From Bacillus sp. 522_BSPC (GTDB taxonomy: Bacteria; Bacillota; Bacilli; Bacillales; Cytobacillaceae): a DNA stretch of 35,591 nucleotides. Position numbers and translations under genes: made by a program. The notes below the pieces were generated by a model. The model worked only from the letters and a program-made list of their open reading frames with translations, had not been told where the DNA came from and did not search any database. Below are positions 15,143-25,805 of this stretch, one piece after another (position 1 is the stretch's first letter; each line of letters starts with the position of its first letter). Location of the stretch: assembly GCF_001076885.1 (NCBI RefSeq), contig NZ_JVDT01000013.1, positions 1 through 35,591 of the forward strand, given 5' to 3'.

Positions 15143-15432
15143 ATAAAAAAATCTCGTCCCTTGCATCCATCTGAATACAAGGGACGAGATTTTTCCCGTG
15201 GTACCACCCTAATTGAAGATTTTCTTAAATCTTCCACTTTGCAGTTAACGCCTGCTCACGTTTCTACCTACTTTATGAAGCAAAATATTTTCAGAAGAAA
15301 GCCTCCCAGAGTGTTCTTTCTCTATGGCATCATGTAGAAATGCTTGCAGCCTAATGGACATTTCCTCTCTGTTCATGTGTTTCATAGATACTTTTCTCGA
15401 TCAATGGCTTTACTAGATTATTTATTATTATC
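15143..15432 (-). promoter_or_regulatory. T-box riboswitch leader of hisS-aspS
   Basis: The conserved T-box sequence AGGGTGGTACCACG is on the minus strand at 15197-15210. Just after it comes the terminator stem TCTCGTCCC (15181-15189) with GGGACGAGA (15152-15160) and a seven-T run. The T-box region can instead pair upstream as antiterminator. Upstream, 15301-15430 has the size and features of stem I. In the stretch GAACACTCTGG, the CAC at 15311-15313 is the likely specifier codon, which reads His and agrees with hisS downstream. Uncharged tRNA-His would stabilise the antiterminator and switch the operon on. The T-box and terminator are certain; the specifier is an inference. Confidence 0.95.
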
Positions 15433-20629: not shown

Positions 20630-21142
20630 TTAATATTCCATTAATGTTAAAACATCGTATCCATCTAAATTTTTACGTCCTTCAAGATAAGATAATTCAA
20701 TTAAAAATGCAATACCAGCTACAATGCCACCTAGCTCTTCTACTAATTTAATTGTTGCTTCAATTGTTCCACCTGTTGCTAATAAATCGTCTGTAATAAG
20801 GACACGCTGACCTGGTTTAATAGCATCCTTATGGATTGTTAATACGTCTTTACCGTACTCTAATCCATATTCTACTTTAATTGTTTCTCTTGGCAATTTT
20901 CCTTCTTTTCGCACTGGAGCAAAACCCACTCCAAGGGAATATGCAACTGGACAGCCAATGATAAACCCTCTAGCTTCTGGTCCTACAACTATATCAATTT
21001 CTTTTTCTTTCGCATACGCTACAATTTGATCTGTTGCATATCTATATGCTTCGCCATTATCCATTAATGTTGTAATATCCTTGAATCTGATCCCTTCTTT
21101 TGGCCAATCTTCAACGATCGTAACAAATTGTTTTAAATCCAT
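20630..21142 (-). CDS. apt: Adenine phosphoribosyltransferase
   Basis: Salvages adenine with PRPP to AMP. It has 170 residues. The PRPP-binding motif [13 protein letters not shown] is at about 114-126 and the PPi-binding PEARGF loop is near residue 54. The start overlaps the end of recJ by ten bases and its GAGGAGG ribosome site lies within recJ. The apt message is thus the tail of the recJ transcript, and its translation may be coupled to ribosomes finishing recJ. Since recJ is interrupted by a group II intron whose frame closes early, apt expression could be affected by splicing. No separate apt promoter was evident. Confidence 0.97.
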
Positions 21143-23219
21143 TCTTTTACTTCCTCCTCATTATTAACGGATTTTATTAGAATAAGATCAAACCAATTTT
21201 TTAGTTGCTCATAAGATGAATAAATTAATTCATTTTCTAGCTCAAATTGCGCTTGCTTTTGTTGAAATGAGATCGACTCTGATAAATCTCTTTTCGGTAC
21301 ATTCTTATTCAAAGAAATAAATCCATCCTTCATTGTAACAAAATTTAGTTCAAAAAACACCTTTGACATAAAATCTACCGTTTCTTTGCTCCAACCTTTC
21401 CTTCTAGCAAGCTCGCCACCAAATTTATCAAGGTGAAACATTCCCTGTTTTGCCAAAAATGCATAGAACCATTTGAAATGGTCACGAGTTGGCATTGTAC
21501 TAAAAAAATCACTTTGTTGTTTATAAAAAACGGCATAGATTCTTTCAGGTTGATTGTTAGCAAGCAATGTTTTTAACATATCCAAATTTGGAGGATAATC
21601 TGCAAGGACGATAGACTTATCCATCGAAACAAGTAAGGCAGCATCCTCTATCGTTTCAATTACCTGGTAGGAGACTCGCAGTTCCATCCCTTTTGGAACA
21701 GAATCTTGATGGAAAAAGATCCAGAGAGCATCCATAGGAACTGTTTCATATAAATGATCCATTTTCCTTAAACTTCTATAGTCAAACAACTGCCAGTGAG
21801 AAACCTCCATATCTTGTATAAAGATTTGTGGTTTTTTACGATTATTCCATTCATTTATTGAAAGCTCACCAAGAACAGATACCTTCGCACTTGGTGAAAT
21901 ATGATCACATAGCTCTCCAATTCCAAATCCTATTCCATCTAAATCAAATTCGTCTTGCTTTAAGATAATCTTTAAATGGTTTTGATTGGAGCCTATTTTC
22001 CTCATATTCTCTATTTCTAGGTCATGAAAAGTCATTTTCGGCTTGGGATTATCTACTCCAAACGGAGCAAGCATTTGCATATCTTCGATTGATTTGATGG
22101 AAATCTCTTTTAGAGAAAAGCTTCCATCCACCTTTGTTAGTGGAACGAGATTGTCTTTCGTTAGTTGTTCAAAGGCTAATTTATTTAAGTTACTTCTCAG
22201 CACTTCTACATCATCTATTTTTAATGACATTCCTGCTGCCATAGGATGTCCACCAAAATGAGGAAGAATATCTCTGCATGTGGATAAATTATGATACAAA
22301 TCAAAGCCTTCTATACTCCTAGCAGAACCTTTAGCAATTCCCTTTTCATAATCAAAGCTTAATACAATCGTTGGACGGTAAAATTTCTCCACTAATCTGG
22401 AAGCAACGATTCCGACCACACCAGGATTCCAGCCATCTTTTCCAACAATAAGAACATTATTTTCTGTTAAAGGATAATATTGTTCAACTTGAGCGATAGC
22501 TTCCTCTGTTATTTGATTAACAATTGCTTGTCTCTCTTTATTTGTTTCTTCCATTTCTAGTGCAAGTTCTTTGGCTAAGTCGGGATCTTCTGTTAGCAAT
22601 AGCTCTACAGCAGGATCTGCACTACCAAGTCTACCAATTGCATTTATTCGTGGCGCTAGCATAAACCCGATTGTTTCTTCATTAATGGAATTTTTCTCCA
22701 CATTCATTTGACGATATAAAGCATTTAAGCCAATATTATCTGTTTCTTGTAAGGCTTTTATCCCTTTTTTGGCAAGGAGACGATTCTCACCAGTCAAAGA
22801 AACAAGATCGGCAATTGTTCCTATTGCAGCAAATGGCAATAAAGGAAGGGGAGCATGGCCAAGTAGTGCATGGGATAACTTGAAGGAAACACCAACCCCT
22901 GCTAAATCACGAAAAGGATACTTGCTACCCTCTATTTTCGGATGTATGATTGCAAGAGCCTCTGGTAAAATCGGACCTGGCTCATGGTGATCTGTAATGA
23001 TTAGATCTATCTCTAATTCTTTTGCCACTTCTGCTTCATGAACAGCAGCAATACCTGTATCAACCGTGATAATTAATTGCACTCCAATGCTTTTTGCATA
23101 ACGAAAAGCACCTTCGTTTGGTCCATAGCCTTCTGTAAATCGGTTTGGAATATAAAATTCTACATTAGCACCAAGACTCTCTAATGTTTTCATCATGACT
23201 GTTGTACTGGTTACCCCAT
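21133..23219 (-). CDS. recJ: RecJ single-strand exonuclease, 3' exon (after group II intron)
   Basis: 3' part of a 5'-3' single-strand DNA exonuclease acting in mismatch and recombination repair. Read after splicing, this exon supplies residues 93 (part) to 787. It holds DHH motifs [11 protein letters not shown] and ITDHHEPG, then [12 protein letters not shown], and the DHHA1 part with [11 protein letters not shown] and [11 protein letters not shown]. The C-terminal region is an OB-like domain plus the Bacillus-type extension. The exon contains no stop or frameshift. The conserved reading starts with GGGGTAACC (GVTSTT); the frame also stays open about 30 codons upstream through intron domains V and VI, which is not protein. 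Joined to the 5' exon it gives 787 residues, the normal Bacillus length. Confidence 0.93.
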
Positions 23220-23302
23220 ATAGTGATAGGTAAAGTTTTGATACAATCTCCACTTTTTCCCCCACTTCACACCGTACGTGAGAGTTTCCCCTCATACGGC
23301 GT
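23220..23302 (-). ncRNA. Group II intron domains V and VI
   Basis: Domain V is 23269-23302: the lower helix is CGCCGTA with TACGGTG, there is a two-base CG bulge, and the upper helix TGAGGG/CTCTCA is capped by a GAAA tetraloop. The catalytic triad is CGC (23299-23301), a known variant of AGC. Domain VI spans about 23222-23266, with AGTGG pairing to the CACT near the end. It leaves an unpaired A at 23227, eight bases from the 3' end, the normal branch point. Both elements appear undamaged, so the intron keeps what it needs for the chemistry. Confidence 0.93.
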
Positions 23303-23385
23303 TCCATCGAGAATGTTCAAAGCTATTTTAATCTACATAACTTAACAGAATTCACTTTTTCACAAAATTAGTTATATAAGTCCGT

Positions 23386-24806
23386 TTATATCGTTATTTC
23401 ATCAAATTCCATTTTCTTACGTAAGGTGTTCAATTTATTTAAACTTTGTTTATTAGGTATAAGTTGAATGTATCTAGAGATTGTTTCTTCATCAACAGCA
23501 TGTAATAAAATGTGAATTTCCCTATCTATTAAACAGAGGTTTTTGTATTCATCAGTTCCTCCCATAGTTCTTGGGATAATATGATGACAATGTATCGAGT
23601 TCGGATTAAGTTCATTTCCTGTAACTCTACATTTACCTCTTTGTCCACTAAATAAAGCAATTCTATTGTCGTTATACTCCACACTTCTGTTTCTAACTGG
23701 ATTTTCCATGAGAAATCTCATTGTTGTTATATTAACTGTAGTTAGATTCTTGTGTATTTCTAAGCGACCTTCTTTAGTATACGCATTTACGATGTTCCTT
23801 TTCATCATTGGACTTTTGTGCTTTATAAATCCAATAGGTAGAAAAGGGTCGGTTGAGACAAATCGCATTTGCTTGCTGATTCCGTATTCTTTTCTGATGA
23901 ATTCAGATGATATGTGACCTATCTTTTTGACCCGTCTTTTCATACGGTGGTCTTTAAGACATGCATTAACTTCGTATGCTATGTTGCCCATATCTTGGGA
24001 TATCATTGTTGCAATACGGAAGTATTGATGAAGCCCTATGACGGTTGAGTTGTATAATGCTACCTTTCGCTGTTGGTCATTAGTTCCACTATCATATCTA
24101 ATTCCATTGATAAGTTCTTTTAGATTGTCTTTGGTTCTTTGTTTCGCTTTATCACACATATGACTTTTGACAATCCATCTGCTTCCTTTTGGAATAAGTT
24201 TCATTTTAAAGCCAAGGAATTCTGAATAATCCTTTTTGAGATTTACTATTTTTGATTTCTCTTCGCTTATTTCTAGGTCAAGTCTATCCTTTCTGCATTA
24301 GCCTATAACTTTGTGCTATTGCATTTTCAACTGACCTATTTGGTCTGAATCCATGACTTCTATCTGAGAATTTTGTTTCAACAATCGGTTCTAGGACTTG
24401 TAATATACATTGTTGGATTACTCTATCCCATTATGGCTGGTATTCCTAGTGGTCTAATTTTACCGTTTGGCTTTGGTATTTCAACTCTTCTTACTGCTTT
24501 AGGTTTGTAGTCTCTTAGCTTATTCCTTACATAGCCTATAAATTGTTCCTCTGTAAGTTTTGCTATGTCGGTAATCTTACGACCATCGACACCAGCCGTT
24601 TTACTCCCTATGTTTTTCTTGATGTTACGATACGCTAATTTAATGTTTTCAGATGAACTAATGATACCCATTAAATTCTTGAACATACTACCAGATTTAC
24701 TTTGTTCATGTAGCATGTCAAACGTATCTTGCATTCTGTAGTATTCGGCATTTCTTAGCTTGGACTTTTTAACATTTTGTACGATTCGTGAATTTGCCAC
24801 AGCCAT
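23386..24806 (-). pseudogene. Group II intron reverse transcriptase/maturase, frameshifted and internally deleted
   Basis: Three pieces of one protein. Piece 1 starts at ATG 24806 after AAAGGGG and covers RT0 to early RT2, ending in VEIPKPNGKIRPLGIPAI. One extra A at 24431/24432 shifts the frame; without it the text continues as WDRVIQQCILQVLEP and HGFRPNRSVENAIAQ (to about 24290). There the sequence jumps to RLDLEISEEKSKI, which belongs to the end of the RT domain, in another frame. The stretch between, including YADD and the RT3-RT5 core, is gone (about 150 residues). Piece 3 retains the thumb/maturase region and an HNH endonuclease (CRVTGN, HCHHIIPRTMGG, LLHA). The protein cannot be an active reverse transcriptase. 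The C-terminal 272-codon piece could still be made if translated. Confidence 0.93.
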
Positions 24807-25528
24807 CAACCCCTTTCTCAAGTGGTGATTCTATTAGTCATATTCGAATCTGTGTAAATGTTATGCATTTATTAGCCTTTGAATTTCCCGACTAGAGCCT
24901 ATCCCTCCACCACTTGTTATCATGGTTTCAAAGGTACTATGACTCCACTCTCACGAAGATAAATCAGTTTTAGTAGGGGCAATGCCTCTTTATTTACTGA
25001 ACTGCTTCAAAGGTAGGTTAATACCTCCACATTCTTCGCTTTCCACGTTCCGATTCCTCTATCCTTACATATATCCTTAGGTTTCTCCTATGGTCCTGTA
25101 TGCTAGAGCTTGCCTGTAACAAGCTATGGGCTTTCATAACGCCAGATTCTTACTTACCCACACATACGATGGCACTACCACCTGTTGCATTTCTACAACA
25201 TCTACGTCTAGACCCGTACATTCAGAGATTCGTCAGTGCTTATGCAGCACATTCTAACCATAGATTTTTTATGGACTCCCGGCATATAGGATACACCATC
25301 CACCTCTGGACAGCTTTCGTGTTAGTTATGACCTAACTTACGATATCTCTCTGCCGACTTTACCGAGCTTCATACCCTTCTATTTAACCTTAGAAAAGGC
25401 ATGTCGGAGTATCAGAGTAGGCATTTCAAGGCGTTACCCTATCATTCTACCTATCAAGAAATCAGTTCTCCTAGGGATATTAAGCGACTCCCTAGTGCCT
25501 AACCTTTTCAGTTAGGAACGTGTCGCAC

Positions 25529-25805
25529 CCGCGTCATAATCACCAAAGATTAAAATTGATTCCTTATTAGCGATTGCTTTTCGTATTCTTTCCACCGCTA
25601 TGTCCATTCCTAATAACAAAAACGGGTCATGAAATTCATTATTATCATCATATAAAAATGCTTTTGCCTCTTGTATTGTATGATATCCTCTTTTTAATAA
25701 TAGAGAGGCAACAATTGGGGATATTTTTAATTCTTCTGCTAATACAGATGCTTTTTCTTTATTTGGGATTTCTTCTTGTATCCATCTTTTTTTAGGACGT
25801 AACAT
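25529..25805 (-). CDS. recJ: RecJ single-strand exonuclease, 5' exon
   Basis: First 92 codons of RecJ plus one base of codon 93. It begins MLRPKKRWIQEEIP and ends ILIFGDYDA, just before the Asp completed by the 3' exon. The catalytic motif I DYDADG is therefore split between exons, while the DHH motifs are all in the 3' exon. If the transcript is not spliced, ribosomes read GATRS and stop five codons into the intron (stop at 25512-25514), giving a 97-residue product without a nuclease site. A ribosome site precedes the ATG (GAGGTG). Upstream, lapA is followed by a weak hairpin; the recJ promoter should lie in 25806-25948 but was not resolved. Confidence 0.92.

Follow-up and report, generated by a model that had tools for sequence, protein, structure and literature searches.

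Interruption of recJ by a group II intron

Analysis of 35,591 nucleotides of Bacillus sp. 522_BSPC (contig NZ_JVDT01000013.1, positions 1 to 35,591; the window) finds recJ split by a 2309-nt group II intron (25528-23220, minus strand) inside the codon for the last Asp of the motif DYDADG, a residue that we take, from work on other RecJ proteins, to bind metal. Judged from the sequence, it is highly probable that a retroelement settled at this codon, that its intron-encoded protein (IEP) was broken later, and that the ribozyme still splices to give full-length RecJ. The features are as follows.

21133..23219, minus strand, recJ exon 2: AT of the split Asp codon, then GVTSTT... to the stop; DHH, DHHA1, RecJ_OB and C-terminal domains (Pfam)
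23220..25528, minus strand, group II intron, 2309 nt
23222..23266, minus strand, domain 6: bulged A at 23227, eight nt from the 3' end
23269..23302, minus strand, domain 5: CGC triad at 23299-23301, G-U pair kept
23386..24204, minus strand, C-terminal remnant of the IEP, 272 aa: end of the reverse transcriptase (RT)/maturase model (TIGR04416 279-352, E 0.0007) and HNH (Pfam)
24290..24291, minus strand, site at which 476 nt of the intact copy (L069, see below) are missing; position approximate
24423..24821, minus strand, N-terminal remnant of the IEP, 132 aa, RT start: TIGR04416 positions 2-73; stop after a 1-nt insertion near 24433
25160..25164, minus strand, tentative EBS1, UGUGU: 5/5 pairs possible (two wobbles) with IBS1, ACGCG, 25530-25534
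25202..25206, minus strand, proposed EBS2, CGUAG: 5/5 pairs possible (two wobbles) with IBS2, UUAUG, 25535-25539; in an unpaired loop according to RNAalifold
25268..25470, minus strand, part of domain 1: Rfam RF02004, model 1-201 of 201
25529..25805, minus strand, recJ exon 1: 92 codons and G, base 1 of the split Asp codon

The intron begins with GTGCGACACG at 25528 (GTGCG, which fits GUGYG) and ends with ...CACTAT at 23220. Both Rfam ribozyme models are matched over their full length: RF02004 (group-II-D1D4-5) at 25470-25268 (minus strand; 184.8 bits against a cut-off of 34.5, E 1.7e-42) and RF00029 (D5-D6) at 23304-23220 (minus strand; 60.9 bits against a cut-off of 40, E 9.3e-10), the latter match ending exactly at 23220. 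An earlier note on this DNA had placed an intron at 23220..25528, between bases 1 and 2 of the DYDADG Asp codon, and the Rfam matches and the intron ends confirm these coordinates to the nucleotide. The CGC triad of domain 5 and A23227, the presumed branch point, are present in 7/7 intron copies. EBS1 and EBS2 were chosen after a scan that lists other candidates too; the assignment of EBS1 is doubtful on this account and because RNAalifold puts its stretch in helices.

Host gene and selection on its exons

When 25529 is joined to 23219, the split codon reads G|AT (Asp) and the product is a RecJ of 787 aa containing DYDADGVTSTT, the sole stop being terminal; the intronless recJ genes of four congeners likewise encode 787 aa. 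The earlier statement that this join restores the Asp and a 787-residue enzyme from undamaged exons therefore holds. An exon-2 protein query finds one recJ match in the genome. Because, in one set of 80 recJ relatives, the closest named one is that of Niallia circulans NBRC 13626 (89%), the host (Bacillaceae) is called Niallia-like here and its genus is named accordingly. Elsewhere in the window, a T-box leader (RF00230, 128.7 bits, 15177-15413, minus strand) lies just upstream of genes that, judging by their translations, are hisS and aspS.

The spliced recJ has a dN/dS of 0.072 against the congener G009 at a dS of 0.50, and across ten pairs from five species the ratio is 0.063-0.081 (NG86 throughout), the intron-bearing recJ behaving like its intronless congeners. 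Private residues number 13 in our genome (G000), 11 in G009, 21 in G001, three in G008 and two in G012. These comparisons give no sign that selection on the recJ exons has been relaxed, although a recent insertion could not show relaxation. Even an intron that splices poorly might persist, recJ being dispensable in B. subtilis.

Loss of the intron-encoded protein

Relative to the intact copy of the intron at locus L069, the IEP frame is broken twice, by a 1-nt insertion and by a 476-nt deletion that removes the RT core including YADD. The recJ intron is thus unable to move itself now, and with its own maturase/RT dead, a point absent from the earlier note, splicing would have to be autonomous or helped in trans. 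Compared with L069, the two remnants have dN/dS values of 0.047 and 0.072 (dS 1.7 and 2.3); such low ratios suggest that selection acted on the IEP during most of the interval after the copies diverged and that the break is probably not old, and if it is recent, the constancy of the exons tells little about the period that followed. Broken IEPs are common, amounting to about 30% in one survey (PMC8919778). The 272-aa C-terminal remnant was considered as a possible small maturase. An ATG at 23307 (domain 5), open into exon 2, was set aside; the counterpart frame in L069 begins with GTG further in.

The same recJ codon in other genomes

Two further genomes carry an intron at this codon. In Bacillus sp. 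FJAT-42315 (genome G574, locus L069) the intron is 2785 nt long and encodes a 636-aa IEP with YADD, which scores 347 bits with TIGR04416 (cut-off 300); in genome G225 the copy has 976 nt and no room for an IEP. The spliced recJ frames of both are open. On sequence criteria this is a single intron lineage at one recJ codon in three states: with an intact IEP, with a broken IEP, and too short for an IEP. The empty site that the earlier note proposed to look for in related genomes is the rule, the codon being uninterrupted at 108 of the 110 recJ loci inspected (all 80 of one set of recJ relatives and 30 of the 151 genomes found with the exon-2 query; the sets may share genomes), and the two interrupted loci are our own and L069. 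A scan of 397 genomes of the order, which left out G574, found the pattern of exon and intron start in two, G000 and G225.

The 5' part of the ribozyme is 89.5% identical between G000 and L069, compared with 65.4% over the opening 1000 nt of exon 2; these values, together with the patchy distribution, favour horizontal acquisition of the intron by recJ. The intron may instead be an old vertical inheritance that has been lost many times, since the identity of the IEP to that of L069 (76-83% at the protein level) sits inside the range of the neighbouring proteins (apt 86, relA 80, dtd 71, secDF 65 and recJ 57-58%, neighbour names having been read from translations). Carriage of the recJ copy by phage was set aside, the pattern of the recJ exon-intron joint having 0 matches in viral contigs. 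Relatives of the L069 IEP occur in 63 records of a phage collection, the best place in each being below 60% identity (top 50.6%), and 13 plasmid records have short matches that cover at most 4% of the query among the matches listed.

A search of an open-access library, in which subscription papers are mostly absent, for 'group II intron' together with recJ yielded no intron in recJ as judged by titles and the beginnings of abstracts. Two observations made in the comparison of recJ loci concern other records. One titled Chryseobacterium sp. ISL-80 has a recJ locus of the Bacillaceae type (62% identical) and is probably mislabelled; and in G057 and G031, with two and three matches respectively, the best RecJ match ends early (at residue 604 with TGA, and at 617), possibly through another interruption or a frameshift.

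Further introns of the same class

Besides the recJ intron, the genome contains eight more introns of the same class with both Rfam parts. Their joints, except that of the Gfo/Idh gene, were read by eye from flanking translations, and the host gene names are NCBIfam/Pfam matches of single exons, several of them under the whole-protein cut-off.

polC (L033, G000:C57:60000-67500): joint PDIDL|N FSGE; lacks a frame large enough for an IEP but retains 61 residues with similarity to that of L069
pcrA: joint DEYQD|T NR
topB: joint SDHHA|IIPTEQ (less exact)
nrdD, two introns (L028, G000:C271:22500-36000): joints NSMH|SRGGG and RRITGY|LVGS (the second less exact), each with a TIGR04416 protein above cut-off
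nrdJ: joint FIDN|A NEMT
DHH-type gene, the second interrupted gene of this type (L030, G000:C176): joint QYDTW|D WEKN, by eye after base 1 of the Asp codon
Gfo/Idh: joint in VYDPD; spliced frame joined and open

For polC, exon 1 covers positions 5-976 of profile NF001688 and exon 2 covers 978-1444; the DHH-type gene, at 27.6 bits, falls short of the 28.1-bit cut-off, and nothing matches its exon 2. The interrupted motifs are presumably conserved active-site motifs. Both polC and pcrA are essential in B. subtilis. The host thus appears, from these joints, to run several DNA-metabolism genes through group II introns. The earlier note had likened the recJ intron to known exceptions such as that of Geobacillus recA; it is not a lone case in this genome. 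In the same open-access library, with the same shortage of subscription papers, titles and the beginnings of abstracts showed none on such introns in connection with pcrA, topoisomerase or ribonucleotide reductase.

The intron in the Gfo/Idh/MocA-type gene (Pfam) is a short copy of 801-938 nt, located in a G|AY Asp codon in VYDPD, and is carried by four species of the genus (G000, G009, G008 and G012), with the spliced frame open in 4/4. The gene is uninterrupted in G001, and the other eight of the 13 genus genomes have no match at E 1e-60. Across the six carrier pairs dN/dS is 0.048-0.061 at dS up to 1.26, and between G008 or G012 and G000 or G009 it is 0.048-0.058 at dS 1.09-1.26; the four pairs with the intronless G001 are saturated in dS and give no ratio.

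Proteins matching TIGR04416 are present in 11 of the 14 genomes surveyed (G000-G012 and G225), G007, G008 and G011 having none. Our genome has eight above cut-off in addition to three fragments of the recJ intron, and six of the eight align with most of the L069 IEP at 46-54% identity. G012 has one RT, in a 431-aa frame, that is 45% identical to the L069 IEP across 221 residues, and G225 has one RT match, 30% identical to that IEP, which adjoins a group II D5-D6 match. The search with RVT_1 took in five genomes and that with the L069 IEP six; G008 (a single contig, rated 100% complete) has no match to TIGR04416, RVT_1 or the L069 IEP, and its Gfo/Idh intron is still there. Because the short copy is found in G008 despite the lack of a match to two RT models, the lineage may splice without a cognate maturase.

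A 445,863-base contig of G009 (G009:C2; loci L196 and L197) has six IEP matches whose same-scoring partners lie on two contigs of G010 (five on C22, one on C19). One intron there adjoins a gene that by eye resembles a DNA methyltransferase, and the contig is a possible vehicle.

Conservation of the ribozyme

In domains 5 and 6, all 29 pairs are kept in 7/7 copies (203/203 cells paired), and five pairs have changes on both sides. On four of five measures none of 500 shuffles of these two domains scores as high, on the fifth (further pair types) 6/500 do, and a control with the structure slid along the sequences leaves 34-49% paired. For domains 1 to 4, RNAalifold predicts 192 pairs, 33 of them with two-sided changes; five of the 192 are unpaired in the G000 recJ copy and four to seven in the other copies, gaps counted. 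Agreement in pairing is inflated because the structures were predicted from the same sequences; the independent Rfam models agree with the predicted domains.

Between the recJ copies of G000 and L069, 34 of 218 comparable predicted pairs differ (three of 221 having been set aside for gaps), and 31 of these 34 are still paired (in 13, neither side is the same), while three are broken. In domain 6, three adjacent pairs that are GC, CG and CG in L069 are AU, GC and UA in G000. The tentative EBS1, UGUGU, can form 5/5 pairs in the recJ copies and 4/5 in the Gfo/Idh copies of G000 and G009; the Gfo/Idh copies of G008 and G012 have UGGGU at this position, which can form 5/5 pairs with AUCCA, and one predicted helix pair there is broken. 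EBS2 reads CGUAG or CAUAA in the copies, either of which can pair 5/5 with UUAUG.

Probable splicing of the recJ intron

Two same-site copies, covariation and undiminished purifying selection support a group II intron whose removal restores RecJ, as the earlier note had proposed; the intron is real and very probably still spliced out. The idea in the earlier note that splicing may be tied to temperature or magnesium is a conjecture. In the sequence of events that we infer, a site-specific group II retroelement of an HNH-bearing class would have inserted itself into the G|AY codon within DYDADG of RecJ, and its reverse transcriptase/maturase would later have been broken in the Niallia-like lineage, leaving a splicing-only intron. 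The ribozyme would recognise exon 1, branch at A23227 and join the exons, so that full-length RecJ would be made from the spliced mRNA. An unlikely alternative is that the intron is dead and recJ a pseudogene. The IEP is broken, and one review describes most copies of introns in bacteria as truncated or inactivated (PMC4424553); however, the exons are intact, the dN/dS of recJ is unchanged, and domains 5 and 6 are intact with two-sided changes. We reject a pseudogene on the grounds of the dN/dS and the exons. An assembly artefact or contaminating sequence is more improbable still: the assembly is a draft of 291 contigs with a contamination estimate of 1.64%, but the joints fall exactly at the splice sites, related introns occur elsewhere in the assembly, recJ has a single match, and the same site is filled in two further genomes, which leads us to reject this explanation also.

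If the intron is spliced, as we favour, the reaction may be performed by RNA alone or with help from one of the six related maturases of sister introns in the same genome. Recruitment of a maturase in trans (for example, from the nrdD, pcrA or topB intron), which would make RecJ dependent on the protein of another intron, has a little under an even chance in our estimation. The six related IEPs, of which the nearest is 54% identical to that of L069, are consistent with it, as are reports that IEPs of Thermosynechococcus elongatus mobilise ORF-less introns in trans (PMC2882425), that splicing in trans has been shown for a cyanobacterial IEP, and that ORF-less introns of bacteria are nearly always accompanied by a related IEP (PMC4424553, for both). 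Against it stand the short copy of the lineage in G008, with its lack of a match to TIGR04416 or RVT_1, and the short copy in G225, where the one RT match is 30% identical and adjoins a match to group II domains 5 and 6. The other possibility, that the ribozyme lineage needs no intron-encoded maturase any more, may well be right but falls somewhat short of being probable; it draws on the short Gfo/Idh copies that G008 and G012 keep, with the spliced frame open and a gene dN/dS of 0.048-0.058. However, help could come from RNA helicases of the host or from a maturase that the two searched models do not cover, G008 may have lost its IEP recently, dS against the intronless G001 is saturated in all four pairs, and the argument concerns the sister Gfo/Idh copy rather than that of recJ. 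For the recJ copy, sister maturases acting in trans and autonomy are about equally likely.

Comparison with known introns

A group II intron in recA of Geobacillus kaustophilus has been reported to be active (Chee and Takami 2005, as cited in PMC3522654 and PMC4424553). Like it, the recJ intron is of group II and interrupts a housekeeping gene for DNA repair in a member of the Bacillaceae; it differs in the gene, in the broken RT and in the presence of eight sister introns in other genes of the same genome. Likewise, the ORF-less introns of T. elongatus have no working IEP, and IEPs of relatives can act on them in trans; according to the same report, few introns of that species lie within genes (PMC2882425), whereas those described here lie inside coding motifs, and the short copy persists in a genome with no detected RT. 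Group II introns of phages, too, lie in conserved genes, are in several cases ORF-less and have been suggested to receive help in trans (PMC12350094); unlike them, the present introns are in chromosomal bacterial genes, and the recJ joint pattern was not seen in viral contigs.

We tentatively propose, at somewhat less than even confidence, that the intron lineage is now stable and maturase-free in chromosomal genes (intact in recJ of FJAT-42315, broken in the Niallia-like recJ, ribozyme-only in recJ of G225 and in the Gfo/Idh gene of four species), and that polC, pcrA, topB, nrdD, nrdJ and recJ of one genome use group II splicing. If so, the DNA metabolism of this genome would depend on ribozymes, much as in organelles. 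A 2015 review (PMC4424553), to which later cases may have to be added, knows of only one ORF-less intron of bacteria whose genome has no related IEP, C.te.I1 of Clostridium tetani; the G008 copy looks similar, being ORF-less with no related IEP detected in the genome, but the recJ lineage, unlike C.te.I1, still has a copy with an intact IEP. Since L069 preserves that intact form, the path by which a retroelement turns into an intron that only splices can be followed in this lineage. With one lineage in three states at one codon, and with a reduced copy kept across species at dS above 1, also in G008, where no RT was detected, the conversion of a mobile retroelement into a resident intron, which is presumed to lie at the origin of spliceosomal introns, becomes directly testable in a genus with cultured members.
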